A stretch of DNA of 64,000 nucleotides from Bimastos eiseni (taxonomy: Eukaryota > Annelida > Clitellata > Crassiclitellata > Lumbricidae), in assembly GCA_959347315.1 (NCBI GenBank), contig OY365810.1, positions 18,302,358-18,366,357 of the forward strand, given 5' to 3'. Position numbers and translations under genes: made by a program. The notes beneath the pieces are model-generated. The model saw nothing but the letters and a program-made list of their open reading frames with translations. It was not told the DNA's origin and did not search any database. Shown here in pieces: positions 30,487 through 63,160 of the stretch. Position 1 is the stretch's first letter. The number at the start of each line of letters is the position of its first letter.

Positions 30487-30990
30487 CTATCCCATCATTG
30501 ACTTAAGGTCATCAATCGGATGGCGCACATCAGTTGACATGAGGTTGTACTTCTGCACGAGAATGTCCAAGACGTTAGGCGTGATGAATGCCGGCAGCAC
30601 TGGTCCCAGGCGGATGTTCTTTATACCAAGGTGAAGCATTGTCAGCAACACGGCCACTGCCTTCTGCTCAAACCAGGATATAGCATACGAAATTGGCAGA
30701 GAGTTGACGTCCGTCTTCAGTGCATCTGCCAGGGCCATGGCAATAACAACTGCACCATACGAATCGTTACACTGACCAACGTCCAGAAGGCGAGGAATTC
30801 CGGTTGAGCCAAGCATACCAAAATCATGACGATTGAAGCGGTACTTAGCACATCCCATGGTTAAGATGAGTGTCTCAGGTGGTAATGCATCTGCTAGATT
30901 GGTAAAGTAACTTCGCTTGTTCTCTGATCCATCACATCCACCAATGACAAAGACACGCTTCAACTCACCCGATGACATTGCCTCCAGCAT
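30487..30990 (-). CDS. HCP: HCP coding exon 8: C-terminal ligand domain and stop
   Basis: 167 codons with [34 protein letters not shown] and [11 protein letters not shown], giving the last three cysteines and the final Glu ligand, then [10 protein letters not shown]. It ends in TAG at 30489-30487. Spacing between these ligands is close to that of Desulfovibrio Hcp. An 11.4 kb intron precedes it. Confidence 0.95.
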
Positions 30991-33900: not shown

Positions 33901-36900
33901 ATTGCGCTGAATGCATGTTACATCTGTTTCCTTTTAACCACATGTCTAATTAAACCGAATTTAGGGATTGTATCAATTCATGCAGTGATGTAATAAACTC
34001 CAATGTGACTATATTAAATGAGGGACCGCGCCTGGAAATCTTCTCTGAACTTGATGATGATGATAAACCCTTATTAAATAATCTGGACTTAGACCCAGAT
34101 AATAATTACTACTTAGAAAGGCCTGAACCAAGTATGTATAGCACCTCTGCCTCGCTATTGACTACATGCCAAAGGAATAAAGATCTGACTTCTCTAATAC
34201 ACGTCAATTGTCGCAGTATACTCTCTAAATTAACTGCGCTTGAGAATTTATTAGCTGCCTTATCAATCGACATACTTGCAGTAACTGAAACATGGCTCGA
34301 TGTCGATTCCGCTAACCAAATTTTTATACCTGGGTATAACTTTGAACACCGATGTAGAACTACGGGAAGGGGAGGTGGGGTTGGTTTTTTTCATCAGGAA
34401 TACATTAACTTACCAATTGCATAACCTACCATCATGCACTGATCACACAACATATGAATCATTGTTTTTACGATTCCCAAAGCCAGGAGGATCATACTTT
34501 CTGGCTGGATCAGTATACCGGCCACCCGGCCCCGACTTAGAGACATTTAATAGGGAATGGGACTTGCTATTATCAGCCATTCAATCCAAAGATAAAGATA
34601 TGTATATATTGGGAGATTATAATATTGATTTATTAAAAACTGATAATCATGGACCTACCAATAATTTCTTAAACGCCATGTCGTCACATCACTTCTTACC
34701 AATCGTTACCCAACCGACAAGAATTACTTTAACATCTGCAACACTAATTGATAATATATTCACCAATCGCATATCTAAAACCACCGAACCCACTATACTG
34801 GTTGAAGACCTGTCCGACCATCTCCCAGTCCTAACTTGGATTGATAATAAGCCCATAGTATGGAAATCCCCAATTGATAACCTCACTCGCTGCTTTGATC
34901 ACAAGTCCAAAGCTTATTTTGAAGAGCTCCTATCTAGATGCGATTGGTCGGCTATTACTGATTTTTGTAGCAATGAGGAACCCTCTGCAGCATATGAATC
35001 ATTTAGTGTTAAATTTAAAGAAATGCCTTGCCTTTCCACTTATGCCCAGTAAGATGAAATCAAAACCAACATTCAAGCAACCATGGATGTCGCCAGCTCT
35101 CTATAAATCTTCGAAAACCAAAAGCAAACTTTATTTAGCCTTTATTAAGCATCCGTCATTGGCCAACAAAAATAAGTTTACAGTATACAGAAATAAATTC
35201 AAAGCACTATGTAGGATAACTGAAAAGGATTTCTACATGTTAGAATTTGCCAAGTACAAGAACGATTTAAAACAAACTTGGTCTACTATTAAATCATTGC
35301 TAAAAGTAAAAACTACTGATTCATTAATTAAATGCTTAATACTTAATGGGATCATGATCACTGATGGAAAACTAATCGCTAAGAAATTTAATGCCTATTT
35401 TACAAATATAGCGCAGGACCTGGTGACTAAAATTCCACCTCCTATTAACTCGGTAACTTCGTATTTACCCTCTCCCAGCTCATCATCGTTTGCAGTTTAC
35501 CCAACGTCTATGGAAGAAGTACTCGCTCTAGGTCATTCACTGAAAACCACCAACAGCTCGGGTCCAGATGACATAAATCCCAGCCTTATCAAACCATTAC
35601 TGTCTCTTATTGCAAAACCACTAGCCGATATCATTAATTGTTCCTTGAGAACTGGCATAGTACCTAGTTTATTAAAGATTGCTAAAGTTACACCTATTTT
35701 TAAACAAGGAAATAAAGATCATGTCGCTAACTATATGCCAATTTCTATTTTACCCTACTTCTCTAAATTATTTGAAAAAGTTATGTATGTGCGCCTCTAT
35801 GACTACATCAATAAAAAAGGTATTCTTCACCCATTACAACATGGTTTTCAACTGGGCCATTCCACTTTAATGTCACTCCTTAACGTGCAGGATAGTATAT
35901 CGGCCTCAATAGATCGTAATGAATATTCTCTAGGCATATTCATTGATATTGCGAAAGCTTTTGACACCGTAAGTCACGATATATTACTCATTAAGTTAGA
36001 AAACCTTGGTATCCGTGGCATAGCTCTTAATTGGTTCAAAAGTTACCTTACCCATCAGTACCAACAGGTAAAATGTAATGGTTTTATATCTTCTCTCAGT
36101 CTACTAAAATACGGAGTTCCACAAGGCTCGATCTTGGGGCCAATACTTTTTTAACTTTCATTAATGATCTGCCTAATGTCTCTTCCGTGCTCCAGTTCTT
36201 GCTTTTTGCTGACGACACAAATATCTTTGCTTCCCATAAATCATACAAAAAATTATTTGAAATAGTTAACCGGGAGCTGGAGCATGTTGGTGACTGGTTC
36301 AGGTCAAATAAGCTGTCCTTGAATGTCACTAAGACAACCTGCATTTTATTTAGCTCCCATCGCAAACAGATGCCTAAAATCCAAGGAAAGCTATACTTAA
36401 ATAATATACCAATACCGAAAGTAATAACAACCAAGTTTCTGGGTGTTCATATTGATCAACATCTCACATGGAATGATCATATACGACATATATCAATTAA
36501 AATGGCCAAAAATTTAGGAATAATGGCTAGAGTTGTGCACCTATTGCCACCTAGTATACGAATTAGCTTATACTACACTATGATCCACCCTTATTTATCG
36601 TACTGCAACATCATCTGGGCTTCAAATTATCCCTCAAGATTAAAACACCTTGGTATTTTGCAGAATAGAGCTCTCCGCATGATAAATGGCAGTCACTTTC
36701 TCGCCTCATCCCAACCCATCTACAAAGAACTTGGGATTTTGACTATTGAACAGCTGACCAAGTACCATACTCTTCAATTCATGTATAAATATACACACAG
36801 TCAACTACCCCCTATGTTCAGTAACTACTTCTCCTCCCTATCTGTTTTAAACCCATACAATGTACGAACCTCCGCCAACTACAGACCTGTATTTTGTAGA

Positions 36901-39900
36901 ATCAATACACGAATGTTTTCAATCAGATACTTTGGCCCAAAAGCTTGGAACAGCCTACCAGAGGAGATACGCTCCCAAAAAAGTCTCTATACACTTAAAA
37001 AAAGAATATGCGAATATTTGGTTATCTGATAATTTCCGGTCATGTGTACACTTATATGCACAAACTTATCGTCATTATTGTCATTAAGCACTTAGTTAAC
37101 TAGTTAAGAATTTTCTTCTTCTTCATGTTTCATCTACATACCAGCTGCCATGATTACTAATAACATTAGGGTGACCCGACTACGGGACTTGTGTCCTTTT
37201 TGGGTTTTTTCCTTATTGGCTCCGTTCCTGAATAATTTGATTTGAATTATGTTTGTTTTGTTTTACTTGTTGGATCAATAAAAAAAAAACAGTTAAAAAA
37301 AATGGTCAGTTATTTATTCTAGTACTAAGCATCTAGGGCAGGGGTCCCCAAAGTTTTTGATAACGAGGGCCACGTTTGTGACACAGTGAGAGCTTGCAGG
37401 CCACAAGGAAACCATGCGGGTGCCGAAGTCGCAAAGCCCTTTCAGGCTTAGCTTTTAAATATAAGGCTTATAGGTATGAGCAAATAATAATGTTATATAA
37501 CAGCAATGAAGTGCTTTAATTTTAAATTGAAATTGTATAAGAATTTTGTAACTCATAATATTTATTTATTTTTTTAAAATTTTATTCAAACCTAAAATGC
37601 TATTTATCAATCCATTGGTAATAAAGTTAAAAGTGGAAGTTTTTTTAAGAATTTAACTTAGAATTTGTAAAAATTAAATTCACTTCTTAGGATGAACGTC
37701 ATGCGATTTGGGATGTTGAGGATGTTTCAGCAATAAAATATTACCAAATCGAGATTCAAAGCTTGTTGTTGTGATGTTCCAAAAGTGATACGACATGCTT
37801 AGCATGTTGTCAAACTATCGGATAAGCCAAAACTGATAGGCTTTCAATAAAATTCCATCAAGCTTAGTGCATGAAATGAAGCGAACTTATCTTCGCTTAA
37901 CTTTCCTGCAAGTCGATCAGTTCTAATTGCAAATCAATTGACACAATCCTTGGCTTATAAGTAAACGGATTAAGGCTTGCAATAAGGCTAGCTTCTCTTA
38001 TAAACGATTTAACATTGTCCAATAAAGTTGTAGGCCTAAGAAACTTTCCACAACGTTTAATGTTGCTAAAATGAATATTAAAATAATGATGTGTTTGTCA
38101 AATTGGACACAAGAATGATTTTTCAAAATTCGACTGGGGGCCGCATTAGGTCTGCTTTGAGGGCCGCATGCCGCCCATGGGCCTCACTTTGGGGACCCCT
38201 CATCTAGAGTTTGCAACAGTGCCAAGTGACCAAATGAGCAAGCAAGATTTGTGGTGTATATAAATATACACTAAATATATACTTTGCTGCCCATAAAGAG
38301 ATGCAGATGCTGTACTAATTGAATTACAGATGATGAGCAGGACTGTTAACAATACTGGGAAAAGTATTGCAATAGCAATACCAATACTTTCTAATTAAAA
38401 GTATCGTGATACCAATACTTTTTCTGAAAGTATTGTAATACCAATACTTTAACCAATACCTTTCAATATGCTTGCTTAGTTCGAGCTTAGCATAAATTAT
38501 AATTCATGCGCTGATATTTATAGAAAATTTCCCAAAGAATCGCTTGGGCCAATCACAAGGAATCTAGATAGGAGGAATGGTTACTCGTTAAATTTCCGTG
38601 TGCATGCTTTTCTCTTACACATAGATGTCGCCCCAATCTAAATTTTTCTTCTATTTAAAAATATGGTGTTTTAAACCTCTAATGGCATTTTTTTATTTTG
38701 ACGACGGCATGTTCGAACATAATGCTCTGATATCGCACTCGCAATCTTAATTTCCTCAGTCCTATTCATTTTCAAGATCAACTAAATTCACAAGCACTCT
38801 AAAATTAATTGGACAAGCATGTACTACCAAGGTTCTACTACTCAAGGTTCTAGCATGTACTACTAAGGTTCTACCAGTGAACGCAAAAGAACATAGGCCT
38901 ACTTCGGTCATTTCATTATTTAAGCCTGTAAAATATTCCATCTGTTCGCACCAAGATTTCTATGGTCGAAAGGGGCTATAAATAGGCCTAAACTTACAGA
39001 GGGGTAGCTAGGGGGGGCAGAGGGGGACACGTGTCTCCAGGTGCCAAGTTGGAGGGGGCGCCAAAATGAGGAATAAAACTATTTTTTTTATTTCGAAACA
39101 AACTAATTCATCCCAAAAAAGTTATTAAGATTACATTTTGGTGCCCCCAAAATCCTCATTACAAAAAGGTTGTCACATATGATTTTGGTGCCCCCGGGCC
39201 CCACTGATCTGTCATCACTAATATGTCGTATTTCCAAATCAATTGCAAGCTGTAATCTGTCCTACCGCAAATTGAAGCTAATTTTATCGTATTTGCAGCT
39301 TTAATGGGACAAGATCGTCTCAGCGATCCTGTTCTTCTAAGCATCGAACGAGAAACATGGGATAAAACAAATTTTGATAATGTCATTGACCAATTTGCGA
39401 CAGTTAAATCAAGAAAAATCATTTTTTACACACTGTCTATGACAGTCACGTATAAATGGCCCGAGCATAAAAGTAAACAGTTCGAAAATTAAGAATACAG
39501 TAGGCTAATCATAATTATTTTTGCTAAAATTGTGGTCAACAACTACTTTTAAATAAGTGGAACTTGTTTAATTGAGCAAATGTTTAAAAATAAAATTATG
39601 AATTTTGATGTGATGATGTGATACCACATTTCTTTGGACACCTTTCCCTCGTTACACATCGTCACAATTGAACCCCTCCCCATAGGCGTCATGTAAGGAT
39701 GGCCCCCAAAGGGGAGCCAATTCTGTAGTTTGTCCCCGGGCGCAAAATACCCTAGCTACGCCTCTGTAAACTTACCAAAGCGCACTGATAAACTTCGCAT
39801 ATTGCTTGAGAAACCATGTAAATTTCAGTGAGAAAAAATATTGGTATAGAGTATCGCTGACAGGCTAAAAATAGGTATTGCGATACATATGCGATACCAA

Positions 39901-42900
39901 CAAAATAAAACTATCGCGATACTCGCTGCAATATAGACAAAAGTATTGGCAATACAAAGTATTGCGATACTTTATCCCGATATTAACAGCCCTGATGATG
40001 AGTATGTTGTATAGCATGGCTACTCAAATGGTTCAAGAAAATAAAAATGTAAAGAATTTATAGTTAAATTACATAAAATTGAAGTTGAAACATATGCACG
40101 AAATCTACACTGTGACAATGTGTTCGATGTTGTATAAAATGGCTATTTTACTCCGCGCCGCTGGTCACTGAGATTACGTTCAGAGGATGGAAGTCTATAG
40201 ACAGAGAAGCATTCCGCCGGCATCTTGTCGACAGCCGACTCTGCCTTGATCCAGTTGGAACTGATTGCATAGCAGCAGAGATGTTCGATCTCTATGAAAC
40301 AACTCTCCGCTCCATAATCGACGAGTTGATCCCAATGCGGACAATGCGTATTTTGATGTAATGCTCTCACTCCTTGGTTTGATGCTGAGTGTAGAGCGAT
40401 GCGCCAAACAGCGTCGATGCAGAAGGAGTGGTCTGGATGAGTATCGGGCTGAGTGGAAGAAGTTGGGAGTCTTTTAAGAGTAAGGAGCAGGAGTACTGGG
40501 AAGGCCTAATCTCCCATGATTCAGAGGATAGTAGGCGGCTCTGGCATGACCTGTCAACTATCCTAGGCAGATCACGTGGCTTGCAGGTGTCAACGTTTTC
40601 GTCTGAAGATTTTCGTCAACATCTGCTACAGAAGGTTTCAGACGTTCATCTAGATACCGAGGCCAGAGTACTCTGAAACTCAATGCCGCTTTGAAAAGCT
40701 CGAAAAGGTGAGCTTAAGTCGCATCTTCTGTCCTCACCATCAAAGACATGCAAGCTTGACCTTATTCCAACTTTCCTCCTGAAGGAATTTGTTGATGAGC
40801 TGCTCCATTCTTGGTTCAGCTCTGCAACTGCAATGTCTCATTAATGGAGGATGCCTACCAGAGAGCCAGAAGTGTGCCATCATACGGCCAGAAATCAAGA
40901 AGCCTGGAATTGATCCGGATAACATCAAGAACTATCGCCCTATCTCTAATCTTACGTTCATCTCTAAGGTTATCGAGAAGCTAGTGGTACGGCAATTGCT
41001 GCGATAGTTGGCATCCTGTGACCTAATGCCGAAGCTACAATCCAGCTTCAAGAAGGGCCATTCGACTGAAACCGTTAGTCTGAGGATCATCTCTGATGTT
41101 TGTGATGCCATCAACGCTGGACAGATCACGCTGCTCACGCTTCTGGATGTTAGTGCAGCGTTTGACATTGTAGATCACAGCATCCTGCTGACCAGACTAC
41201 GCATCTTGTTAGGAGTTGTGGGCCAGGCGTTTGAGTGGATCTGCTCTTCCTTAGTGAACGTAAAATGATGTGGCCATTGGCTCGGGCAATTCAGCGTGGG
41301 CGCCTGTGACATTCGGTGTCCCACAGGGCTCAGTCCTCTGCCCACTGCTGTACATGCTATATAGAACTACAGCTGATTTAACAAAGATCTTATGTGCTCT
41401 TGGAGCCCGAGTTCATCAATATGCTGACAACTCCCAACTGTACTTGACATGCCGCCCATCTGAGGCAATGGAGTACGTGTAAAAAATCTTAGCAATTCTG
41501 GATGAAGACCTGTCCTTGAAGGAACATGTCAGTTCCCTGTGCAGGTTTTGCTTTTATCAACTGCGCCAGATTAGTCATTCGGCGAAATCTGTCAATTAAC
41601 GCCACTATTACTCTTGTCCACTCCTTCTTGCTGACTCGTCTGGACTACTGCAATGGTGTCCTTGCAGGTCTGCCAAAGTTCTGGATAAGACAGCTTTAAT
41701 CCATTCTCAACTGCACTGCCTGAGTCGTTGCCAAGCTGCCAAAATACTCACATATTTCAAGCTGTATGTGTGACACATTGCATTGGCTCCCGGTTGAGGA
41801 CAGGATCACATTCAAGATCACCTTTATAAGACAGACATCGGTGGTCGGCACGGCTCCAGAATACATCAGAGAGCTCTGTCTCCAGCCAGGTCATCGATCC
41901 TTGCATGCTGCAGCCCGTGGGACTTGATGGTCCCGCGCTCCCGTACATCGATACGGACAAACCGTGCCTTCTCAAGCATTTGGGCCATCATACTGGAACG
42001 CTCTTCCGTTACAACTTCACAACATTGCACTGCTTGTACCTAACTTTTCTAAATTACTCAAATTGTATTTGTTTAGATCTGTTGGGTTCAACGTTTAGCA
42101 CCTTCTAGAGGTTTTTATAAGGTGCTACATAAATAGCCTAATACATACATACAAATAAAGTATGTAAATAATTATGTCCTAAAAATTTACCGTTGCATCT
42201 GGACCCCAAACTTAAGATGTTCAAAAATTATGGACCTCCATCAAAAGTATTTGAGTAGTCCTGTTGTTTAGTCTCAGACATGACAATGATGACAATTGAC
42301 TTATACAATAGCAAAAACAACAACAACAAATGAATTAATGAACAAAAAAGAATGACTAACGAACCTTGCCAGCATTAGCGATAACTGTGCCATGACCAAA
42401 CCCCACAGTCAAGCTTCTGTCCTTCTGTTTGCATTCTTCCTCCTTGTAGCCTGGTTCCTTCTTAGCTGCCTCAATCAGTTTGTCCATCTCATCCGGAAGA
42501 TGGATGTGCTTGCATCCAGGCCACCCTGTCTCATTCAGAGTGTAAAGGCGTTCTTTATAAGACTTCAGTGGCTCAATAACACAGTTAGTGGTCACTACAA
42601 CTGGACCTGGAAAACGTGGAAATTCAAACTTCTGCATCTGCCAAGCGCCACCATAATGCCCTGCCAGGTTCTGTTACAGAAATATAAGCAATTGTTCAGC
42701 AAAACTCAGCCAATAAATTTTTCATCTGTGCCACTACAGTAAGGCAAATGGTAAATGTTGATTAAAATTTTAAAATGACAAACCTGAAACTGAATCTCGA
42801 GGTCAGTCTAGAGCAGCGTTTCCCAAACTGTGTTCCGCAGAACCCTAGGGTTACGTGAGGCGAAGACAAGGGTTCACGGAAAACTTTCAGCGTGAACAGA

Positions 42901-48900: not shown

Positions 48901-51900
48901 TTTCGTGTTGATGGTCACCGCATCTTTCCGTGCGATCGGCTGAAGCTGACAGTCTGGCGGCGGTGATCAACGAACAGCACAGAGCAGAGGAGGTGATATT
49001 GCAGGGAGACGATCAAGTGCTTGAGCTCTTATGAGTCAAGGTTGTGCTTAACAACAGGGCACTATACGTTGGGGCAGTATACCATCCACCTAAGCCAGTA
49101 TACGAGGTGACCACATTGCTGGACAGGCTCGAGGTCACAGTTGAGGTGATTTCTGCACACGACCCTGGATCCCTCATAGTCATGGGAGGAGATTTCAACA
49201 TGCTCCCAATCAATGACGTGACAAAGCGAACTGGTCTGACCCCACTGGTCACTTCGCCCACAAGGGGAAACAATACGCTGGATTTACTTTTTGTGTCTAA
49301 GCCGTGCTATCCATTTGTAAAAGTTGTGCCATCTGCTCTAAAGACCAACCACCGGGCGTTGGTAGTCGCTGATGGAGGACGGGTAACGAGTAGATCCAAA
49401 GCGCCAAAACGTGTGAGGTTCCGAAGGAGAACCCCAAACCAGCATGCCCTCCTCCTCGAGAGTCTCTCTGCGACCACCTTCGAGAACATCGAGGCCTGCC
49501 AGGAACCCCGCATCGCATGGGACATGTTTTACAATGAAGCACTTGCGCGCCTTGAGGAGCTCTACTCGCTCCGCTCTGTCGCCATTACCGCAGCCGACCC
49601 CTGCATTCGTCACGCCGGAGATCAAGTTTCTTCTTCGGAAGAAGAAAAAGCTGATGAGGGCTGGTCGTGTGGACGAAGCTGCCGTATGCGCCCAGAGAGT
49701 CGGTAAATGCGTTGAAAGGGCGACACGAGCAAGTCTAAGAGAAGTCGATCCACGTGGGAGTCTGAAAGAACTGTAGCAGAACGTTAATCGCATTGTCGGA
49801 AAGCGATCTGTAGTCGAAGTCGATGGCGCTCCTATGGTTGACGACTTCAAGAGACTATCGACCGATGTGAAATACGAACCGCCACCCAAGCACTCAACAG
49901 CTGAGCTTTACCAGAACCATCTTTCTGAAATTCGAGTCTTCAACCTGCTCGACGGCCTAAAGCACACTGCGGATGGCGCCGATGGCCTTCCGACCTGGTT
50001 ACTAGGCCTGTCGGCCCCTGCTTACTCTCGGCTTCTTACAAGACTTATCAACCTTTCCATCATGCACGGATATGTACCGCCACATTGGAAGACGGCAATT
50101 ATTCACCCAATCCTGAAAGTTGAGTTTCCGAAGCATCCCGTCGACTATCGTCCGATTTTTATTGTCCCAGTGCTGTCACGGATGTTCGAGCGCGAACTGG
50201 TGCGGAAGTATATATATCCAGCCTTTACAAAACCAAAAATGTCAGACCTCTTGGCAGACCAGTTTGCGTTCCGACCAACCGGCTCTACAACTGCGGCATT
50301 GATAGCGATTCAACATCTGGTGTCTGACCTTCTCGAAGATAAGGCCTACGTGGCCATCGTCTCCTTAGACATCTCAACGGCTTTCGACATCATCCGGCAC
50401 TCGGAGCTGACGCGCAAGCTCTCTCTGCTTTGCCTGCCAGACGGGGTGCACAACTCGCTGGTCAATTACTTGTTGGACAGAAGCCACTACTGTACTCGCT
50501 TTGGAGGGCAGTTGTCGGCTGTGGTGAGGATCAACGCCAGTGTGATTCAAGGCTCGGGGTTGGGACCACCTGAATACATCATCGACGCTTCGGACCTGCA
50601 TCCTCCACATGAGAAAAACAAAATGGTCAAATTTGCCGATGACACCTACCTCCTTGTGGCGGGTTCAATGAGAGACACTATCAGGGAGGAACTCGCGACA
50701 GTGCAGATGTGGGCGGAGGCAAACAATCTTCGCCTCAATTCCTCAAAGACTAGAGAGATGCTGGTCACAAGAAGATGGGCCGCCATGTCCGATCCCCCTT
50801 TCCTGGAGTGGTGGAGCGAGTGCAGCAGATGAACATCCTTCGAGTCATCATCACGGGGAACCTGCGAGCAACGCCTCACGTCGACCGACTGCTGGGCATC
50901 TGCGCAGTATCTCTGCATGCTCTCCGGGTCCTTAGGTGGCATGGGCTCTCACTCGAGGGCCTTCACACTGTCACCAAGGCCACCACAATCTCCGGACTCA
51001 TCTATGCCTCACCAGCATGGTGGGGCTTAACATCTGCTGAGGACCGGGGTCGATTCGAGACATTCCTGGAGAGAATGCGGAGAATGTGTTTCTTCCCTCC
51101 GGATGCTGTTTCTATGTCTTTATTAGCCGAGATGGCTGACCAGTGCCTCCTATGAGCTGTAATGGTGACTGAGGCGCATGTCCTCAGACGCCTTTTCCGC
51201 CGGTCGTCGACAGAAGCCATAAACTATGCCCTATGCCGATTTACTCTCCCAGTAAAAGATGACAGAAATTTTATCTCCAGGATTCTTTATAAATTCAAAT
51301 TTGTAGCTTGTAATAAATAGTAGGCTTAATTGTACCTGTCATGACCCTCTCTGCTGATCTGGTCGCGAACTACGAACATTCACCTTTTGTAACTTACTGT
51401 GGTTTGTCAGTTTATTTCTCATTAAACGAAGATATACACTTAACCTCCGATTGTTTTATCACTTTAAGAATAGCTGCCATTACAACACAAATGTGCTAGC
51501 TTAAATCTGACTCCCTCAAACGCGCCACCCTCAAACGCGCCACCCTCGAACGCGCTTGTCTCGTGTCCAGCCATATAAATTCAGTTTTATCCGGGTTCAA
51601 TCTTAGGCGATTGGAGGACATCCAGATATGCACATTTTTGACATGCACTCCAGTGCCTCAGATGGGCCACATGTCAAGTACAGTTGGGAGTCGTCGGCAT
51701 ATGCCGTATTGATGAACATGGGCTCCAAGAGCACATATGATCTTTGTTAAATCAGTAAGTCACGCATCAGTGCATTCTACGACTAGCCATGATAGCGTAT
51801 AACAAAACTATAAATAAATCATAATAAAATTACATAATGCCAGTAAAAAATTATTTTAAAAAAAACTTTTATGTCTGACTCACATTGAGACATAAAAACT

Positions 51901-54900
51901 GTTAATGAGATGGCGGGACGTGCATTCTGGTCAGAAGTAAGTCGAAGTCAATACGTGGGCTGATGTTGGTTAGACAAAATCGTAAGTTATTATTTACACA
52001 GAGCCTAGTCTATAATTATATATCTTAGTCTTGATGGTTATCATAGCTGAACATAGCTGAACAGAGGTAGGTAGTTTAAAATAGCAGCAACACTGACAAG
52101 GTCTCGATTTATAGAAAATAAAGCGCATTACAATCACGTGACAATATTTTCCAGTGGAAAAAATGCGATTTTGAAGAAAAGTTGGTGATCCACTTTGATA
52201 TCCTTCGCGACTCACAGGTTGAGAATCATTGCTCTAGAGATTCATACGATACTTAAAAAGACAAGTCTCAAACTGTAACCTGACTGTATCCATTCTTCAC
52301 AGACTGTTGCACCATGCCATGGGTCCAGCAACAATTAAATGACAGTAAAAAAGAAGAGTCCACTAAGACACAAAGGCAGCCCTTAAGGTGGACATGTGTT
52401 CTGAAAAAGCTAAGTCTCAAATTGATAATTAAATGACATTAGTGACTGAACAGAATGAACCAAATCAACGTCCAACTGAGATGATTGACATCTCTGCTTA
52501 CGTCACACAGGGAAAGAGTTCCAAATCCTAGGTTTACCAACCCAAAAATATCATTCACCAAAAACAGTTCATATTTTAGGTAGTTTTTATAAGTTACAAT
52601 AAGGTCCTGAAAAGGGAATAATACAGATGAATTCCTGCTGTGAAGGCAGAGGCAAATACTTAGCAGCAGACATCAGGCAATCACTTGGAAAACAGTTAGA
52701 AACATGGCAGGCAAATGGCAACAGAAGAACAAATGTCATGCAGCAAACTTAATAAATGAAACTAAATAAATAAAACCCACGTTTTACAATTCAAATACCA
52801 ATTACAAATACAACTATTAGTGAATTTGCCATTTTCAAACCTCATGAGTAAATTCTCCAATTGAATCATTCCATTCTCCAAGAAGTCTTGCATGTCTAGC
52901 ATAAGTTGACATTCCTTTGAGACCATAGATGATCATCTGGCGAACTCCATTCACATCTGCTCCATACTCAGGAAGGTCATGCTTCACACCAAACTTTTTC
53001 CCTACAAAATATACCAGTCCAGATTTCCAACCATTCACCTTTGTTATAGAATGCTCCAATATAAAACAAATGCATTTATAAAATGGTTGCTGTTATAACC
53101 TCCAAATTAATCTGATGAGTTAATTTCTACCACAGTATGTGCCAACATTCAATTGTTCTTACTTTTATAGCACAGTATTAGATGATGACTTGCGAGTTAC
53201 CATGCATCATAGTGCATTCTTATCAAACAGCATTTGGCTGCAATTTCAGACAGCAGAATAAACGTTAAAAAATAATAAGAGTTGGGCAATTTGTTACCTG
53301 AGGATGTGCAACTCAATGCAATCAAAATCAAAGCAAAATGTAGCAGAGAGTCAGATTTAAGCTAGCACATTTCTGTTGTAATGGCAGCTATTCTTAAAGT
53401 GATAAAACAATCGGAGCGCAAAATTTTGATCTCAAATATAATTTTTGGAGCTCTGTTGTAATGTAAGCGAATATCTGTATAGTGTCACTCAAAATCAGCA
53501 GCGCTCATAACAGGCATATGTGCATGGGCAAGAGTTTAAAATGTCTTAACCCTCTTGCTCCACAAGGCCGAAATATCGGCTTTTTCCATTATTAATCATA
53601 ATTCCAGCAGGGCCAATAATCAACTACGCGAAACTTGTCAAATATCCGTAAGGACGATATTTCAGCCTCGTGTCTATACTTTATCTTCATATGGTCAGTA
53701 TATCGGTTATGGTAATTAGGTTTCTTTATTTAATTCCCCGTATTGACTCAGACAGGAAGTGATGAAGATGTTCCTATGGTGATCATGGACACGCAATGCG
53801 AATGTGAGAGATACGTGATGTTTCTATCATCATGTTCAAGTAACTGATTCAACTTTCCAACCTGACCAACCAACTGGACCATGTGCTAGCACATGTTCTC
53901 CAGAAAGTAATGCTCTTAATTTTCTGCCACTGTTTTGGGGAGATAATATTTGGCAACAGTTTGTTGATAGTACAAACTTAGTTGCTTCTCGTTGTGAAGG
54001 CTCAAAAACCTAATGATTATTATGGATTAAAGTGAATGACCAGGACCTCCTGGTCGTTCACTTTCTTCCATAATAATCTTTAGTCAATGCCACTGCAACA
54101 ACAAATATGTGGATTGTCGAGGAAAGACCGGTTTGTGAGGTCCAATCCAGCCACAGCAAAGATGGACAATCCAAACAAGGACATCAGGACTGTGTTTCGC
54201 TGGTCATTGTGTGGCACATTCATGATGGTAGCATGTTTTCGGCTGACTACCACAGTAAAGTGGAATTCTGGCACTAAAACATTTGTCAGGTATCAGTAAC
54301 TTTCAATTATATATCAGACTTCTTATCACAAACAGTAAAATTTAAGTCTACAAGCGTTTTGAAGTTTTTGATTTTGCTCAGAAGCTCAGGTCTAGGGGCG
54401 TTTTTGCCTAGGTGTGTAGGGTTAGCTCACTTTCACTATGGGAGCTCAGGAGCAAAAGGGTTAAGGTGTTGTGGCGGTTTTCGCCGGTGCCACCAAGGGG
54501 GAGCATTTTTCGCTCCCTATGGGAGCAATTTGAGCTCCCATGGAAGGGCTAGTAATTCCATGAACAATGACTGTGGAAGACAGTTGCAAGCCAAGGAGTC
54601 AACTAGGCCAAGTGGCCAACATATTTCTACCTTTATGACTGAGTACTTACACTGGCTTCCTCCCATAGCCCACAGCAACGTTTTATGAATATGGTTAAAC
54701 TACAATGTTGTTACAAGAGTGAACTCAAAATTATTAGTGTTTTCCCTACTGGTAAAAATATCCCAAATGCAGACCACAATTGGGAGTATTGGGTCATTTT
54801 TTACATTTTAATGCAAACAATTGGTGCTAGTTGTAGTACTTGTATTTTGTTTTAATTATCAGAAGCAGAAACGTTTATGGATCGAATATGGCTTACTACA

Positions 54901-57900: not shown

Positions 57901-60900
57901 CAACCGGGAGCCCATTCCAGATGGATGGACTGACCACTGAGAAAGCTTGATGCAGCGACAAGCATGCTCAAGAGACCAGTAATTCACCAATAGCAGTGGG
58001 GGGCAGAGCTCTACGAATAGGGAGATCAGAGACCGGACGACACAGTTCAGCCAAGCACAGCGGCACACAACCAGAGAGACTCCGCCAAACTAGTATCACG
58101 TTCCAGAAATATATGCTGTTCAACCAGCAGCCAGTGCAGAACATTGCGCATATAAGCTGAAACGGGTGTAAATTTTGGTATATGCCCAATAAGCCTGGCT
58201 GCAGAGCGAAGAACGCGATCTACACGCACAATTAGGGACCAGTTAGAACAGCGCTGCACTGATCAATTTTCTCCCAGTTAAACACTTTTATATAATTCAT
58301 CAGAGAAGACATTTTTGTAACTGGTCAGACATCTATGGACTATAATTATAATACCTTTTTTCCTTCTTCACTTTTCCTTGTTGAAATTTCCAATAGGAAA
58401 GACATTCCATTCCTGTGTAAAAATCATGAGCACAAAACCTGGCCCAAGATTTCTGCAATACACTGTCAAATGGAAACGCTAGCTTAACAAAAGAAAACAT
58501 TCTCTAATATTTTGATTAGACGTTATCAAGGTTGCCTTGAATGACACTATGATAACATTATCAATATCCAGTAAAGTATTTTAAAGGTGTTCAATTGAAT
58601 GTTTTGGAAATGAATCAACTGTTTTCCATGGTTAGAGCTTGTGATGCATTGGAGTGCACTTTCAACGCAACCTTGATAACATCCAATCAAGATATTACAG
58701 AATGTTTTCAGACCAAGTTTTTAATTGCAAAATACCAATTGACCACACATCAAAGCTTTAAAAATCCATGAAAACTCACCCTCTGCCTCAAGAAGATCAG
58801 TTGTCATACCAGTAACTGGTGTCCATATCGCCTCAGATTGTGTGAATTTATGTATTGCCACTCCCTTTTTACAACACTCCTCCTCATAGGCTTTCTTTAG
58901 ATGATCACGATATTTCAGTGCTTGTTCAATGTAGCCCATAAATCGCTCAGGGTCAAAGTTCACATTTGTCAGTGTGCTGCATGTAAGAAAACCAATCAGT
59001 AACAACATTGATCTTAAACAACCATATTACACAACTTTGTGTGTTTACTATGCAGAAAATGGACCCTCCTCTCACAACATTTATAAGCTCCAGTTCATCC
59101 TAAATGCGGCTGTCTGACTAATCGGTGGAATTCCAAAATATGCTCTTCCTTAATTTGTGAATCCCTTCACTGGCTCCCAGCACCTCAACGCATTCGTTTC
59201 AAGACCCTTGCGTTGATGCATAACTGTCCCCTTAGGTCAGTACCCGCCTACCTTCTGGCCCTCTGCACTTGGGTCTCCTCTATTCTGCACTGGGCTTCTC
59301 TTCGTTGCTCTGCCTGTGGACTTCTGGAGGTTCCCCGCATGCACTCTGTCACGGCGGCCCAATCCTGGAGCTTTGCCTACGTGGGTCCCACCAGCTCGAA
59401 CAGCCTCCCCTTCCTCTTCGGGAGGAGCTGCATTCTCTTCCCCCTGCTGCCTTCCGGATGCGCCTGCAGACATTCCTGTTCTCAATTTAGCTATGAGTTG
59501 AGTCATGAGCGCCTCTGATATCGAGAGAGCCTCTGAGTAGGTTTCTTGAGGGGCGCTATATAAATTTTTGAAATAAATGAATGAATGGCGCTATATAAGT
59601 TTTCCATTACATTACATATGTGTCCATGATGACTTTCTAAACATCTCAAAGACACTTCACAAGACAGATCATTAACAATGCAATGAAAAGCCTTAATAAA
59701 TTGCACTTGATTACTCAATATTACAATATAATTGCACAAAATTCAAATCTCTAGGGTCATTGTTTGGCTGTTATGGAGGGGCATAGAACCTTTTGGCTGC
59801 CACTCCTTGTGTCATTGTAATCATTCCTGCCAAGTGTCAATTTCATCCGACCAGAAGTTCAACATATAGAATAGATAGCTAGAGTAATTGATGGGGCATG
59901 TCTGTCGCATGGAGGAGGAGAGAAGAGCTAAACAGGTGATGTCCTGTGTGCAGGAGAGTGACGGAGGAAAGGAAGACTGAGAAAAAACTGTCCAGAGACC
60001 ATAAGAGACAATCTAAAATGTTTGGAGATATCGTGGGAGGAGGCTGAGACACTGGCTTTGGATAGAGATGAATGGAGGAAGTGCGTTGCCCGATGTGTAG
60101 ACCTACACAGGAGGGACTAAGTAAGTAAGCTAGAGTAATGCCAGGTACTGGAATATCTCATTATTAACATTCAGGCTGTATTTTCCTAACAGGTTGTACA
60201 ATGTGGTCAGGTCAAGTGACTAGGGTGCAGGACTGTCGATCAAAAGGTTGGGCTTCAAATATATGCACATTGAGCATCACTTTTATTCTGCACCTGAAAA
60301 GAGAGCTGAAAGTGAAGTCATAGATTTCGAAGGGTACTTTATATCCCATCAGCTTTGCTTGATGTCCGTACAAACCGATTCCCTTGACAACGTGAACTAG
60401 CAGATCCTGGAGTCCAGCCACTTGGTGTGTCTTGCCACAAACGCCGATTGTAGTGCAGCCCTTACGAAGACGCGTCTGTTCGCATTGGAAACAGAACATT
60501 TGCTCATCTGAAAGAAGTATGAAAAGCAACCGACATATAAATAATATCTCACTCGGTTCAACTTCAGGTGCCTCTACAACATAAAGTAACATGATATCTT
60601 AGTCAATCAAATAATCACTTCAGTTTGAGCTGTAGTCAAAACTCACAACCCAGTATGGCACAGCATAAAAGAGGCCACATAACAGGATCTGTAAGCTTAT
60701 TATCTACACAAGAAATTTTTTTTACATTTCCAGCATGGTTGACAAGCTTCTGTTGGCTGATCGATAAAGCATTGGGACATAAAAAGAATTTTTAGGTAAA
60801 ATACTCTGTAGTAGAGCTGTACCGATATCACTTTTTGCTGATTATTCATTTGCCAATACCCGATTATTTAGCCGATTATTTAGCTGATTATTTAGCCGAT

Positions 60901-62383
60901 TATTTCATTGTGTTTCCCAAAATATCCGGTTCCAAAAGATAGACCTTCTGCTACTGCCTTATTGTTGTGATACAAGCAAAACACTTGTTCCGTAGGAGAC
61001 GTATGCGTGTAGTTGGGGACTAATCCTAGGCAGGCAATACAGATTAGACACACCGCCTACCGCCAAACTGTGCCCAGGGTAATTAAAGGCCATGGAACGG
61101 CTGCCCAATTCACAGCCATCCATCTAGTCTCAGGCAACTGAAATGTTTTGGGGAGATCTGATTAGCAGCTAGCGTTAGGCATGCCTCCACAATGTATATT
61201 AATCGGTTTCTCTGTTGAATTGGCCAGCCGTTCCTTGGTCTTTAAGCAGGCACTATGACTCGCTCTGCATGTGCTGTGTGTTGACACGTTCCCACGGTCT
61301 ATACTAACACACTGGGCAGTCTCACCACTGGTCTGAAGAAGCCATTGGCTCGACGACATGATATGGAAACGGAACGAAATGCCGTCCTTCACAGACCCAG
61401 TGATGTTGCTGTCGTCATTTTGATTTTATAGACTGAAATAATACTAGAAAGTAAAAAAAGATTTTTAATATCGACACCGATTATCTTGCTGATATCCGAT
61501 ATTGCCGATATCTCTGTAACCGATTAATCGGTACAGCTCTACTCTTTAGATCTCAATTCATCTATATTGAACAGTTATACAGCGCATTTTTAAAAACTAC
61601 TAGTTTTTCCATACTAGTTTTTCACCGTTCCTACTCAGTTGTTAATCTTCCAACTGTAACACACTCTGCTCATAGATGCCACTGCTGCCAAGGAGTAAAC
61701 ACCATAGTTACCTGGGAGCACCTCCACATCGATTTCATGAGGGGTGAACTAATGCTTTACTTTGGCACTTAGTCTCATTGGGCATACTACCAAAATATGA
61801 TCGTAATAATATATTCCATGTTGCGACTTCTTGAAGGAAATATGTAGGCCTACTGAGCAAAGTTTTGGATATATGGTGCAAGGCCAATGAGAGGTGGGGT
61901 CAGATGGGGTTGCTGACCCGAGGCCCGGCTCTATGGCGGGGGCCCGTAAGTGTCTAGAAATTTTTCCACTAACTGTGAGGCTGTGCAAAAACTTAAGTGA
62001 CTTGACTTACCAATGTTTTTCAATCTATGGAAAATCTTTCATTTTCATCTATTTAGGCCCTATTCTACTTTCCGGTTCATAACAAGCATGGTTGAAAATC
62101 GGCAAATAACCATAGGTCCTGATAAGGAGCTATATAAACCGCCATGATGTATATCTACACATGAACAAACAAACAAGTACAAGCCCATTAGAAGATATGA
62201 TGGTGTCTCACCTTCTGCTGCTGGTGCTGGGGCATAACAACGCCGGTCAACTGTCATGGCACATGACTTTGGAACCATGCGCATGCAGAGGTAGCTACGA
62301 GAGCTACGGGCACTGCTTCGGTGGAGGGCAATACAGGCCCTGATCATGTGAGGCCTTAGAATCATTCGTGCTAAAGACGTCAT
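30487..62383 (-). CDS. HCP: Hybrid cluster protein (hydroxylamine reductase), mitochondrial, eight coding exons, 623 aa
   Basis: The coding exons are 62383-62212, 60507-60294, 58976-58780, 53001-52841, 47939-47757, 44861-44727, 42670-42365 and 30990-30487. They total 1872 nt in one unbroken frame with GT/AG borders. Residues 1-57 form an Arg-rich leader with no acidic residue before Asp46, typical of mitochondrial import. Cys63, 66, 75 and 81 (CX2CX8CX5C) should bind the N-terminal [4Fe-4S] cluster, as in Desulfovibrio Hcp. The hybrid Fe-S-O cluster ligands are all present: His316 (TGHD), Glu340 (HGEML), Cys384 (TTNC), Cys475 (GGCDG), Cys503 (GCAKYR), Cys530 (GQCND) and Glu564 (WFEQK). Prokaryotic Hcp reduces hydroxylamine in vitro and acts on nitric oxide or in protein S-nitrosylation. 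The electron donor here is unknown; no Hcr-like reductase is in the window. Introns are stuffed with transposons, but no exon is broken. Confidence 0.93.
31212..31880 (-). mobile_element. CR1/L2-type LINE 3' fragment
   Basis: Minus-strand frames read [38 protein letters not shown] and [17 protein letters not shown], the C-terminal end of CR1/L2 reverse transcriptases. The tail GAGGCGCTATATAAATTATC plus ATGAATGAATG closes it near 31212. The 5' end is truncated. Confidence 0.75.
32390..33166 (+). CDS. LINE ORF1 protein, 258 aa, coiled coil plus RRM-like domain
   Basis: Intact frame in the LINE. Residues ~55-100 form a charged heptad-type helix ([20 protein letters not shown]). The segment [32 protein letters not shown] and IYINEHLT matches the RNA-binding fold of L1/CR1 ORF1 proteins. 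It would act as the RNA chaperone of the LINE particle. The start at 32390 has a good context (AAAATGT). Confidence 0.75.
   Translation: MSKKGIKQEDLIECIQDEKVTEVLITRLEDRLMPMIKRMFQSLASSFTASLKTIVTEMAETSMKTFRQEQDARNQKAEKEIVLLKATVDELENHSRLNNLIIFGNNESSTSKEQPSTHHDWTATNNNIIQSIIKIFNERLGLSITESDITSACRLTGGSKGQNGPILVSFASRSTRNSIYFARGRLKGSTDGNRIYINEHLTHFNAAIFAEARKMVKQHTLTSAWTREGLVYVRRSTEVNEKPRTLLSPMDLEKVNAS
33759..33953 (+). CDS. LINE-encoded PHD-like zinc finger fragment
   Basis: 64 residues with the pattern [17 protein letters not shown] and WYCAEC, i.e. Cys pairs and a His spaced as in a PHD-type finger. Several CR1-group LINEs carry such fingers in ORF1. Here it lies between ORF1 and the endonuclease in a separate frame. 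Confidence 0.5.
   Translation: MTLLSYSFNCHLCKCTLTGAVDIIKCSLCTNQYHSSHFVPISCSNSWYCAECMLHLFPFNHMSN
34194..36154 (+). pseudogene. LINE ORF2 endonuclease and RT fingers/palm (frameshifted)
   Basis: Three overlapping frames together read as one ORF2. The endonuclease has [22 protein letters not shown] and SDHLP. The RT starts with PHSS-like [42 protein letters not shown] and [13 protein letters not shown]. Shifts occur in a G/T run at ~34385, near 35025 and in a T run at ~36150. Confidence 0.8.
36187..37029 (+). pseudogene. LINE ORF2 C-terminal part with catalytic FADDTN
   Basis: 280 residues open with the palm motif [13 protein letters not shown]. They continue with [39 protein letters not shown] and [12 protein letters not shown] to a stop at 37029. 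It is open but separated from the upstream RT by a single-base frameshift. Confidence 0.8.
37339..38201. mobile_element. hAT (Charlie-type) MITE, 863 bp
   Basis: Ends CAGGGGTCCCCAAAG and, reversed, GAGGGGTCCCCAAAG. Flanks ATCTAGGG (37331-37338) and ATCTAGAG (38202-38209) match at 7 of 8. GAGGGCCAC and GGGGGCCGC occur near the ends, as in other Charlie-type elements. No transposase remains. Confidence 0.8.
38338..39994. mobile_element. hAT-like element of AGTATTG-repeat family, with nested hAT
   Basis: It starts CAGGACTGTTAACAATAC and ends ATATTAACAGCCCTG. Flanks are identical, ATGATGAG (38330-38337, 39995-40002). It is the same family as 12040-12931 and contains a second complete hAT element at 38997-39766. 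Confidence 0.8.
38997..39766. mobile_element. hAT MITE (CAGAGGCGTAGCTAGG type) nested in another hAT
   Basis: Ends CAGAGGGGTAGCTAGG and, reversed, CAGAGGCGTAGCTAGGG. Flanks are identical, TAAACTTA (38989-38996, 39767-39774). GGTGCCCCC words lie inside. A PIF-like remnant with TGATGATGTGATACCACATT occupies 39590-39710. Confidence 0.8.
40143..42155 (+). mobile_element. Degenerate CR1/L2-type LINE (RT region)
   Basis: Fragments in changing frames: [65 protein letters not shown] and [13 protein letters not shown]. All are RT blocks of the CR1/L2 group. It ends with GGTGCTACATAAATAGCC and a CATACATAC tail. Many stops. Confidence 0.8.
42365..42670 (-). CDS. HCP: HCP coding exon 7
   Basis: Encodes [29 protein letters not shown] with ligand Cys384, and [16 protein letters not shown]. 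Acceptor CTGTAACAG, donor GTTCGT, phase 0. Confidence 0.93.
42814..44025. mobile_element. hAT element with internal foldback repeats, 1212 bp
   Basis: Ends CAGCGTTTCCCAAAC and, reversed, CAGCGTTTCCCAATCG. Flanks GTCTAGAG (42806-42813) and GTCTAAAG (44026-44033) match at 7 of 8. The interior (43270-43720) has repeated GAAGCTGGATTGATGA and AATCATGC units, direct on the left half and inverted on the right half. Confidence 0.8.
44727..44861 (-). CDS. HCP: HCP coding exon 6: His and Glu ligands
   Basis: Encodes [13 protein letters not shown] and [19 protein letters not shown], carrying the His316 and Glu340 hybrid-cluster ligands. Acceptor GTTTACAG. The donor GTCTTT is weak apart from GT, but the next exon joins in phase with [10 protein letters not shown]. 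Confidence 0.92.
45519..45567. repeat. Perfect 24-bp palindrome with 1-nt centre
   Basis: The left arm 45519-45542 and right arm 45544-45567 are exact complements around a single T at 45543. Each arm contains TGTCAATGGTAGACCATAAT or its complement. It would extrude as a hairpin or cruciform. Confidence 0.9.
45768..45977 (-). mobile_element. tRNA-derived SINE with A box, B box and ATT tail
   Basis: Minus-strand reading: GTGGCACAGTGGCCGATTGG, TTAGAGCG (A-box side), GTTCGAGCC (B box), GTCACTGTGTAGGGACCTTG, then AGCAAGTCCTTC and an (ATA/ATT)n tail at 45768-45795. The second copy at 20985-21225 shares about 150 bp of the non-tRNA body. Confidence 0.7.
46553..46850 (-). mobile_element. CR1/L2-type reverse-transcriptase fragment
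   Basis: The minus strand reads [25 protein letters not shown] and HLVHVK blocks, i.e. the RT palm around the [10 protein letters not shown] motif. It is truncated at both ends. Confidence 0.7.
47249..47560. mobile_element. Remnant related to TAGAGCTGTAC hAT family
   Basis: AGAGGTATGCTGATACTG at the left and AAAAAGTGATATCAATACC at the right, with ATAATCGG words inside, resemble the 44969 family. No clear target duplication is seen. Positions 46860-47248 show nothing recognisable. Confidence 0.4.
47757..47939 (-). CDS. HCP: HCP coding exon 5
   Basis: Encodes [11 protein letters not shown] to [20 protein letters not shown], matching the conserved LLD...YG.PTPTQV block before the hybrid-cluster domain. 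Acceptor TTTTTAG, donor GTGAGA, phase 0 at both ends. Confidence 0.92.
48400..48690 (+). mobile_element. CR1/L2-type LINE endonuclease fragment
   Basis: The frame reads [12 protein letters not shown], then [13 protein letters not shown], matching the GDFNIHV block of APE endonucleases. Truncated at both sides. Confidence 0.55.
48760..51325 (+). mobile_element. Jockey/I-group LINE, nearly complete ORF2, decayed
   Basis: Endonuclease blocks: [18 protein letters not shown] (48850-48910), [27 protein letters not shown] and [10 protein letters not shown] at 49834-50832: [66 protein letters not shown] and the catalytic [12 protein letters not shown]. The C-terminal region continues in another frame to 51155, then the [11 protein letters not shown] end near 51300. 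The SGLGPPEY wording differs from the PQGSVLGP of the other LINEs, so it is a separate lineage. Frameshifts near 49030, 49640, 49776 and 50790 inactivate it. It lies in HCP intron 4. Confidence 0.82.
49834..50832 (+). pseudogene. LINE reverse transcriptase, 332-codon open frame
   Basis: Longest intact stretch of this LINE. It holds fingers and palm with [23 protein letters not shown] and [10 protein letters not shown], then thumb [12 protein letters not shown]. It ends at a frameshift, after which 50775-51155 continues the C-terminal domain. Confidence 0.8.
51540..51735 (-). mobile_element. CR1/L2-type RT fragment around YADDSQLYL
   Basis: The minus strand reads [19 protein letters not shown] and then [12 protein letters not shown], palm to thumb of a CR1/L2 RT. 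Both ends are lost. Confidence 0.7.
51740..52840. other. HCP intron 4, nothing recognised
   Basis: About 1.1 kb of AT-rich intron. I see no element termini, RNA gene or coding frame. Confidence 0.4.
52841..53001 (-). CDS. HCP: HCP coding exon 4
   Basis: Encodes [20 protein letters not shown], then [15 protein letters not shown]. The bacterial LYGLKGAAAYMEHA block aligns here. Acceptor TATTTTGTAG, donor GTTTGA. Confidence 0.9.
53550..54460. mobile_element. piggyBac-like element, 911 bp, TTAA target
   Basis: TTAA flanks both ends (53546-53549 and 54461-54464). Terminal repeats CCCTCTTGCTCC and, reversed, CCCTTTTGCTCC. A plus-strand frame with [20 protein letters not shown] near 53937 resembles the N-terminal part of piggyBac transposases but is broken soon after. 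The rest of the transposase is unrecognisable. Confidence 0.7.
54690..55260. repeat. Tandem repeat of ~200 bp, about 2.5 copies
   Basis: The unit runs from TTGTTCCAAGAGTAAACTC through CCCAATGCAGACCACCA and GGTCAATTTTTACATTTTAA to TTGTTTTAATTATTAGAA. Copies start near 54700, 54900 and 55120 and diverge by small indels. Confidence 0.65.
55555..55834 (+). mobile_element. Helitron-like element, copy B (3' part)
   Basis: It aligns with 28681-30234 without the two insertions carried there. It ends CTGGGCAAAGTCAGGTAATT, CAGCTAG, with a T next. The hairpin near the CTAG end fits Helitron termini. Its 5' end is not visible; the tandem repeat at 54690-55260 may belong to it. Confidence 0.6.
55960..56470 (-). 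mobile_element. CR1/L2-type RT fragment
   Basis: The minus strand reads [20 protein letters not shown] (RT palm) near 56160-56210, preceded by broken fingers. Heavily decayed. Confidence 0.6.
56440..56628 (+). mobile_element. CR1/L2-type RT thumb fragment, opposite orientation
   Basis: The plus strand reads [19 protein letters not shown], the thumb/connection block of CR1/L2 elements. It abuts the minus-strand fragment and is cut by the hAT element at 56629. Confidence 0.5.
56629..57758 (+). mobile_element. hAT element with transposase remnant, 1130 bp
   Basis: Ends AAGTGATTCTCAACC and, reversed, CAATGGTTCTCAACC. Flanks ACCTAGAA (56621-56628) and ACCTAATT (57759-57766) match at 6 of 8. TGGTGTGCTGTGAGGCACC follows the left end. 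The interior near 57185-57340 encodes [20 protein letters not shown], the C-terminal dimerisation block of hAT transposases, followed by a stop. Confidence 0.75.
57840..58270 (-). mobile_element. CR1/L2-type LINE C-terminal fragment
   Basis: The minus strand reads [20 protein letters not shown] and [12 protein letters not shown], then the PTAIGELLV region. It is close to the fragment at 31212-31880 and is the same family. Positions 58271-58779 show nothing recognisable. Confidence 0.7.
58780..58976 (-). CDS. HCP: HCP coding exon 3
   Basis: Starts at [12 protein letters not shown], the [10 protein letters not shown] block of Hcp helical domain 1, and ends in LLEAEG. Acceptor TTACATGCAG, donor GTGAGT. 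Confidence 0.9.
59050..59590 (+). mobile_element. CR1/L2-type LINE 3' fragment with tail
   Basis: Broken frames of the C-terminus ([19 protein letters not shown] wording near 59165, then [16 protein letters not shown]) run into GGGGCGCTATATAAATTTTTG and AATGAATGAATGG. It lies in HCP intron 2. Confidence 0.65.
59890..60125 (+). mobile_element. LINE C-terminal fragment (GHVCRM type)
   Basis: Fragments GHVCRMEEE, then [18 protein letters not shown] and [15 protein letters not shown], typical of the C-terminal end of endonuclease-reverse transcriptases of LINEs. Frame breaks are present. Confidence 0.6.
60294..60507 (-). CDS. HCP: HCP coding exon 2: N-terminal [4Fe-4S] domain
   Basis: Begins after acceptor TTCTTTCAG with [12 protein letters not shown] and contains all four cluster cysteines, then [20 protein letters not shown]. 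Donor GTGCAG splits a Ser codon. Confidence 0.92.
60812..61541. mobile_element. hAT-like element (TAGAGCTGTAC type), 730 bp
   Basis: It starts TAGAGCTGTACCGATATC and ends CGATTAATCGGTACAGCTCTA. Flanks CTCTGTAG (60804-60811) and CTCTTTAG (61542-61549) match at 7 of 8. GCCGATTATTTA repeats at the left. It lies in HCP intron 1. Confidence 0.78.
62212..62383 (-). CDS. HCP: HCP coding exon 1: mitochondrial-type presequence
   Basis: It encodes residues 1-57, starting [20 protein letters not shown] and rich in Arg and Ser. The donor GTGAGA leaves one base of the next codon. Exon 2 begins exactly at the bacterial start region, so the leader is a separate exon. The ATG at 62383 opens the frame; untranslated exons further upstream are possible. 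Confidence 0.75.
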
Positions 62384-63160
62384 CTTGGAACTGCAGATAG
62401 CAATAAAACAGTATCTCTAACAACTGTTGAACAGCAATAAGTGCAACAACAGCTGTCATTTTAAATGGATTTCCTATATTTCACCATGATCTGTGTCTGG
62501 AAATCTTTGAATAAATTTTTTTTCATGATATCATGATATATAGAGGAACTTTAAAGTCTAGGAGATGGTACATCTGTTATTCACCCTCATTACCCATTCT
62601 CTTCACAAAGGATACAGTGCAAAATGAAGAACCTCTGAATCCAATTCAAACATGACAGCCAAACATAAACACCAGGGCATACAAAAGCATTCGAACGTTG
62701 AAGCTTTGACACAAGCGAGCAAAGTTAAAAATGACCAAAGTGTCGTGGCTGTACAAGTGTAACGACAAAGCCTCTAGAGTCTAGACCACCTACGTGTTGT
62801 GGTCACATTTATAAAAGCTTTGTAGTTTTATACAATGATGCAAATAATAAATGTGTTGCACAGATGATGGGAGGAATTATAACACATTTAACATAAACTA
62901 TTCTTTCAATAATTATAAACTTTACTTTTTCAGCAACCCATCCAATCGCATCCATGCACAATTCATGCCCGTCCAAAATAATTTCCTACCATTCTGCCAG
63001 CTAAGGACAAACATTTAATATTATGGTATTGCTAATTCTAATTTATTTATTATGGCTTTATTTATTATGGCTTTATATATTATGGCATATTGTTTAATAA
63101 ATATCACAGTTAGAATTTTTTTTACTGCTCAATCGGTTGCATTCGTGAGTCCAGTTCAAA
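62384..63160. other. HCP upstream region
   Basis: Presumed promoter or leader of HCP. AT-rich, with no recognisable core element, CpG cluster or untranslated exon. A short ATTTATTATGGCTTTAT direct duplication lies near 63045-63080. Confidence 0.35.

Follow-up and report, generated by a model that had tools for sequence, protein, structure and literature searches.

The window analysed here is a 64-kb stretch of the genome of the annelid Bimastos eiseni, corresponding to bases 18,302,358-18,366,357 of a 46-Mb contig (C5) in an assembly of 660 Mb and 118 contigs, and it is gap-free (zero N). Its minus strand carries a gene for a hybrid cluster protein (Hcp) that spans 31.9 kb. A sequence-only reading of this DNA had proposed eight exons with a stop-free frame of 623 residues; splicing reproduces that frame, which runs unbroken from 62383 to 30487 on the minus strand and ends in a stop codon, and all seven introns are bounded by GT-AG with consistent phases. 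When the 660-Mb assembly was searched for the Prismane family, the four matches obtained were all exons of this gene, and a single locus was found.

Exon 1 (62212..62383) holds the start codon and a leader of mitochondrial type that takes up residues 1-57 plus the first base of codon 58; the sequence R48-C49-Y50|A51 lies near the leader's end. Upstream of the start codon, the frame stays open for 11 codons only and then meets an in-frame stop, with no further Met (ORF 62060-62416). Exon 2 (60294..60507), which has a Prismane match at the level of the single exon, encodes the N-terminal cluster cysteines C63, C66, C75, and C81. An alternative acceptor (exon start 60573) is also in frame and would add 22 residues; the start at 60507 is preferred for its better pyrimidine tract and for the agreement in length with the relatives. 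Exon 3 (58780..58976), defined by the spliced model, joins exon 2 at a phase-2 junction, and exons 4 (52841..53001) and 5 (47757..47939), likewise defined by the spliced model, are contiguous in relatives. The Pfam Prismane match of exon 4 (0.00088, 18.5 bits, obtained with a longer ORF piece) lies below the 27-bit cut-off. The hybrid-cluster ligands are distributed over exons 6 (44727..44861; H316 and E340), 7 (42365..42670; C384), and 8 (30487..30990; C475, C503, C530, and E564), the last of which also contains the stop codon. A chance match to the family is excluded by the values for Pfam Prismane with exon 8 alone (1.8e-59) and for NCBIfam with the whole protein (1.8e-204).

The introns had been described as full of the same repeats as the rest of the window, which proved to be overstated. 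By blastn within the window (E<=1e-8, aligned length >=60), 3,245 of the 30,025 intron bases recur at some other place in the window, and 822 of the 30,025 have a copy that lies outside the gene; the latter are found in four of the seven introns, and intron 2 has none in the window searched. What stands is that introns 4 and 7 carry LINEs. Three overlapping frames of the element in intron 7 (34285..37029, plus strand) encode endonuclease and reverse transcriptase domains, and a second LINE-type reverse transcriptase lies in intron 4 (49777..50832, plus strand). The same kind of LINE reverse transcriptase is also present beyond the gene, at 14.0 and 27.7 kb, and the argument for a real nuclear gene therefore holds.

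An open frame preceding the intron 7 element (32324-33166) has no Pfam match, and scanning the window for tRNAs and with Rfam gave no matches. Elsewhere in the window, a 12-base tandem array at 8371-9043 consists of 58.8 copies of ATGCATGTAAGT; its long minus-strand open frames, rich in H, T, Y, C, and A, probably represent no gene. Two repeat copies with similar translations, at about 20973-21224 and 45799-46059, are possibly a short interspersed element.

A PITH-domain (PITHD1-like) gene is located about 7 kb past exon 8, in the same orientation. Its N-terminal part is an open frame at 23266..23607 (minus strand), and more pieces follow on that strand at about 19.0, 17.6-17.9, and 11.9 kb. 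The joined pieces match proteins of Capitella (56%), Ridgeia (55%), Lingula (60%), and Helobdella (56%), and the named relatives among 89 matches are animal, save a few fungi that rank lowest. A second PITH-domain match in the assembly (G000:C15:2029147-2029275), with one internal stop, is another PITH gene or a fragment. The other flank of the Hcp gene has, about 14 kb off, a poorly scoring HECT-domain fragment (18.9 bits, where the cut-off is 23.9). A Ser/Lys-rich frame of 312 residues at 2872-3810 on the minus strand has no Pfam match; it appears similar to the N-terminal part of animal DNA topoisomerase I.

That the gene is a product of bacterial contamination or an assembly chimera has a vanishingly small probability. 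Such an explanation has a precedent in a Riftia pachyptila plume library (2007), in which one ‘hydroxylamine reductase’ EST (EF648468) was suspected by its authors of being bacterial contamination (PMC2175520). Here, the seven GT-AG introns, the position of a gap-free window within a 46-Mb contig, the animal neighbour, and 66% identity to a leech protein all speak against it, and the first three of these uphold the earlier claim that contamination is excluded. The Riftia EST may itself be the worm's own gene.

The mitochondrial genome was recovered as contig C118 (15,339 bases). Its assignable protein genes are all encoded on one strand and follow the order cox1, cox2, cox3, nad6, cob, atp6, nad5, nad4L, nad4, nad1, nad3, nad2 (assigned by reading frames), which we take to be the common annelid order. 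Together with the protein tree, this identifies the host as an annelid. A long simple tandem array at about 12850-13300, between atp6 and nad5, occupies what is presumably the annelid control region position. A search of the assembly for COX1 gave 35 matches, on C4, C5, C6 (two), C15, C16, and other contigs; they include six full-length copies outside C118 in which TGA codons are kept; the extra copies point to many large, apparently recent nuclear mitochondrial insertions.

Protein family, cluster ligands, and leader

The spliced protein scores 680 bits against the NCBIfam hydroxylamine reductase model NF003658 (cut-off 367; residues 61-622) and 648 bits against TIGR01703 (cut-off 361; residues 61-621). 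Among proteins of solved structure, the best-scoring relative is Escherichia coli Hcp (PDB 7de4; 1.2e-141, 476 bits), and Desulfovibrio vulgaris Hcp is matched at 2.1e-133. The N-terminal region is present, with residue 61 onward aligning in a single stretch from D. vulgaris residue 1. In this alignment, C63, C66, C75, and C81 correspond to D. vulgaris C3, C6, C15, and C21, and H316, E340, C384, C475, C503, C530, and E564 correspond to H244, E268, C312, C406, C434, C459, and E494. The choice of these D. vulgaris residues as the cluster ligands is our assumption, as are the names of classes I, II, and III, and C475 is presumably the equivalent of the persulfide cysteine in Desulfovibrio. Across an alignment of 260 rows, the window protein included, each of the 11 ligand positions is occupied by just one type of residue, and no more than three rows have gaps there; at eight of the 11, 25 proteins counted separately (P0001-P0025) all agree. 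Judged from these sequence comparisons, the protein is almost certainly an Hcp, of the Desulfovibrio type (class I), and it is full length.

Codon 58, in which exon 1 ends, lies three residues ahead of the catalytic-domain Met61, and the exon carries nearly the whole leader. Residues 1-57 had been noted as Arg-rich with no acid before residue 46, and the leader as mitochondrial-looking and encoded by its own exon. Both observations were borne out: the first acid is D46, with others at 57-59; ten R/K fall within residues 1-60, and residues 1-40 contain eight R/K and zero D/E; and R-C-Y|A near the end of exon 1 is what we take to be a textbook R-3 site of the mitochondrial processing peptidase. 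The motif R-x-[YFL]-[ASG] was then scored in the last 30 residues of 71 leaders from a 97-row set of eukaryotic-type proteins, after 26 rows had been dropped in which there is no leader of at least 20 residues starting with Met. It is found in 29 of the 71 leaders (shuffled mean 7.8, maximum 17; 500 trials) and, among the animal-clade leaders with the window included, in 11 of 23 (shuffled mean 2.1, maximum 8; 500 trials), counts that reflect a motif chosen after inspecting the leaders and rows that are related by descent. The best helical moment of the leader is 0.56, a value reached by 46% of shuffles, and three of the 23 animal leaders beat 95% of their own shuffles.

The leader diverges fast, being identical to P0001 at 15 of 53 residues versus 472 of 562 aligned residues in the body. 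A pseudogene is rejected on this contrast, together with the intact frame and the retention of every ligand. It is likely that the annelid Hcp is mitochondrial: the leader encoded by exon 1 would be cut at R-C-Y|A, giving an imported mature protein of about 573 residues.

Relatives and origin of the gene

The protein search listed the best 120 of 7,999 scored proteins, and a profile built from 17 animal-clade rows yielded a further list of the best 120, 57 of them new, giving 177 relatives in all. The closest of the matches listed is P0001, which carries no name (82%). At least ten named animals are among the matches listed, namely Helobdella robusta (66%), Owenia (61%), Lingula (60%), and seven bivalves (Sinanodonta, Dreissena, Mytilus, Mya, Mactra, Solemya, and Mercenaria; 52-57%). 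The bivalve, Lingula, Owenia, and Helobdella proteins, automatically annotated as ‘hydroxylamine reductase-like’ or hypothetical, form one clade with the window protein at 52-66% identity, and Hcp is very probably orthologous across lophotrochozoans. The sequence-only reading had described Hcp as mostly prokaryotic, with occurrences in some anaerobic protists; the orthologues in annelids, a brachiopod, and bivalves extend that range, and beyond a single animal. Most of the 177 relatives listed are without a name, and among those with one no arthropod, vertebrate, nematode, cnidarian, or echinoderm was seen.

Besides the window protein, the animal clade contains 26 proteins (P0001-P0025 and P0071), ten of them named and 16 counted as animal by tree position alone. 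For these 16, the longest contig of the cluster measures only 1.9-6.1 kb, which fits spliced cDNA because the annelid gene spans 31.9 kb; this suggests that Hcp is spliced and transcribed in relatives. The Helobdella gene model has an 11-residue insert exactly at the site of window intron 2 (phase 2, between LF and TLTNVNF), which is most simply explained as a mis-annotated intron at the same place and hence as a shared intron position.

A FastTree phylogeny of 260 rows (the window protein, the 177 relatives, the best 80 of at least 589 confirmed bacterial loci, and two PDB sequences) recovers the animals as one clade of 27 inside 97 eukaryotic-type rows, among whose named members are Stygamoeba, Tetradesmus, Volvox, and Closterium, plus EukProt entries. 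With IQ-TREE, applied to 87 chosen rows of which 30 are bacteria, SH-aLRT support is 99 for the 18 animals and 97 for the 57 eukaryotic-type rows, all 30 bacteria falling outside; the split between eukaryotic-type rows and bacteria is partly circular because the ‘other eukaryote’ rows, many of them nameless, were picked from the first tree. A set of 51 rows gives support of 99 for the animals with the other eukaryotic-type rows. For these 51 rows, a grouping of animals and bacteria against other eukaryotes was not rejected by the AU test (p-AU 0.44); placing the animals with Pseudomonadota rows is 37 log units worse (p-AU 0.055), which is disfavoured and not rejected at 0.05.

On these trees, descent of the animal Hcp from an early eukaryotic Hcp is supported, not proven, for the sampled set, which is one without Trichomonas/Entamoeba-type protist rows. 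An independent acquisition from a bacterium by an early lophotrochozoan, as opposed to inheritance from early eukaryotes, seems to us unlikely. It draws on the fact that the grouping with Pseudomonadota is not quite rejected and on the absence, among the 177 mostly nameless relatives, of the five named animal groups given above, so that losses must be assumed under inheritance; against it stand the support of 97 with every bacterium outside, the support of 99 in the smaller set, and a leader cleavage motif common to the animals and the other eukaryotic-type rows. The earlier suggestion of long residence is backed by the animal clade (99), the orthologues in other animals, and the grouping with eukaryotic-type Hcps, and the phylogeny did not show the gene inside one recent bacterial clade devoid of animal relatives.

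A 2006 study (PMC1484493) describes two or more separate transfers of Hcp from prokaryotes to protists, Trichomonas and Entamoeba being among the recipients, and the eukaryotic Hcps as a whole are therefore without a single origin. Algal Hcp has been proposed, in two further papers (PMC7412212, PMC8003979), to descend from one alphaproteobacterial gene via mitochondria. Our trees are compatible with alphaproteobacterial-mitochondrial descent.

Proposed function

Our overall reading, towards which we lean slightly, is that of an old mitochondrial Hcp retained by lophotrochozoans and probably reducing NO at low oxygen; the chances that NO is the main substrate of the annelid protein appear evenly balanced. 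The mechanism is modelled on bacterial and algal Hcp. In the matrix, the N-terminal [4Fe-4S] cluster would take electrons from a ferredoxin- or flavoprotein-type donor and pass them to the hybrid [4Fe-2S-2O] cluster, which would reduce NO as oxygen falls (2 NO + 2 e- + 2 H+ -> N2O + H2O); the removal of NO would protect the Fe-S and haem enzymes of respiration against nitrosative damage. The role in nitrosative stress suggested by the earlier reading is thus far plausible. The conserved ligands fit NO reduction and other Hcp chemistry alike. Profile searches of the genome in which exons were matched singly gave no match to NO synthase (PF02898; the control matched in two bacterial genomes) and none to alternative oxidase (PF01786; the control matched nowhere), and the same kind of single-exon search did recover PITH and Prismane exons; with exons matched one at a time, the two negative results are weak tests and are not taken as absences.

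The retention of every cluster cysteine would also suit a mitochondrial NO sensor and protein S-nitrosylase, not a detoxifier, a reading to which we give little credence; we know of no partner in animals. Such a role has been proposed for E. coli Hcp, and the review reporting it also describes the redox potentials as unsuited to an oxidase (PMC7412212). Alternatively, the same protein in the same place might have the physiological job of reducing hydroxylamine to ammonia, thereby removing a toxic nitrogen intermediate, which we consider rather improbable. The family name and the NCBIfam equivalog point in this direction, and Hcp does carry out the reaction in vitro, but the same review attributes to it a low affinity for hydroxylamine that makes a physiological role doubtful (PMC7412212). 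There is a slim chance that the protein serves as an electron sink, re-oxidising reduced ferredoxin in anoxia as has been proposed for Chlamydomonas HCP4 (PMC8003979).

Within the literature searched, outside which most subscription papers lie, no functional study of an animal Hcp was found. Hcp performs oxygen-sensitive chemistry and is usually regarded as an enzyme of bacteria, archaea, anaerobic protists, and algae; many lophotrochozoans inhabit oxygen-poor sediment, and the N2O from benthic worms and bivalves is usually attributed to their microbes. The inclusion of algae among the usual holders follows PMC8003979. An intact, apparently mitochondrial Hcp across annelids, a brachiopod, and bivalves would mean that a nitrogen enzyme for low-oxygen conditions has gone unstudied in a large group of animals, and it makes testable the question of NO detoxification or N2O production by the animals' own mitochondria. 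We suggest tentatively, and as a possibility on the unlikely side, that lophotrochozoans make N2O themselves, a host mitochondrial Hcp kept since early eukaryotes reducing NO in hypoxic tissue. If this were true, part of the N2O of benthic worms and bivalves would be animal metabolism, and the Riftia EST set aside as possible contamination would belong to the worm. The annelid Hcp gene is a real and intact animal gene, probably mitochondrial and probably old, that has hardly been studied.

Comparison with known systems

The class I Hcp of D. vulgaris (PDB 1e2u and others) shares with the annelid protein the same full-length alignment, the spacing C-x2-C-x8-C-x5-C, and the seven hybrid-cluster ligands; the annelid gene differs in being nuclear, in having seven introns, and in encoding a leader of about 60 residues at the N-terminus. 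E. coli Hcp (7de4), which we take to be a class II protein with a [2Fe-2S] cluster, has the same hybrid-cluster motifs, whereas its N-terminus reads C-x2-C-x11-C-x6-C in the alignment, unlike the annelid spacing, and it works with a partner, the NADH reductase Hcr. The 506-residue chains 7e0l and 7wsx, presumably shortened class III proteins, align in two stretches, unlike the one stretch of the annelid protein. The catalytic subunit of anaerobic CO dehydrogenase has a Pfam family name in common with it (Prismane/CO dehydrogenase); membership in that group was rejected, TIGR01702 giving 40.4 bits against a cut-off of 478.

In the tree, green-algal Hcps (of Chlamydomonas incerta, Volvox, and others) belong to the eukaryotic set that contains the annelid Hcp. 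In Chlamydomonas reinhardtii, HCP2 has been detected in the mitochondrial proteome and the other three copies are predicted to be plastidial (PMC7412212). The duplicated genes of C. reinhardtii contrast with the one copy found in the annelid.
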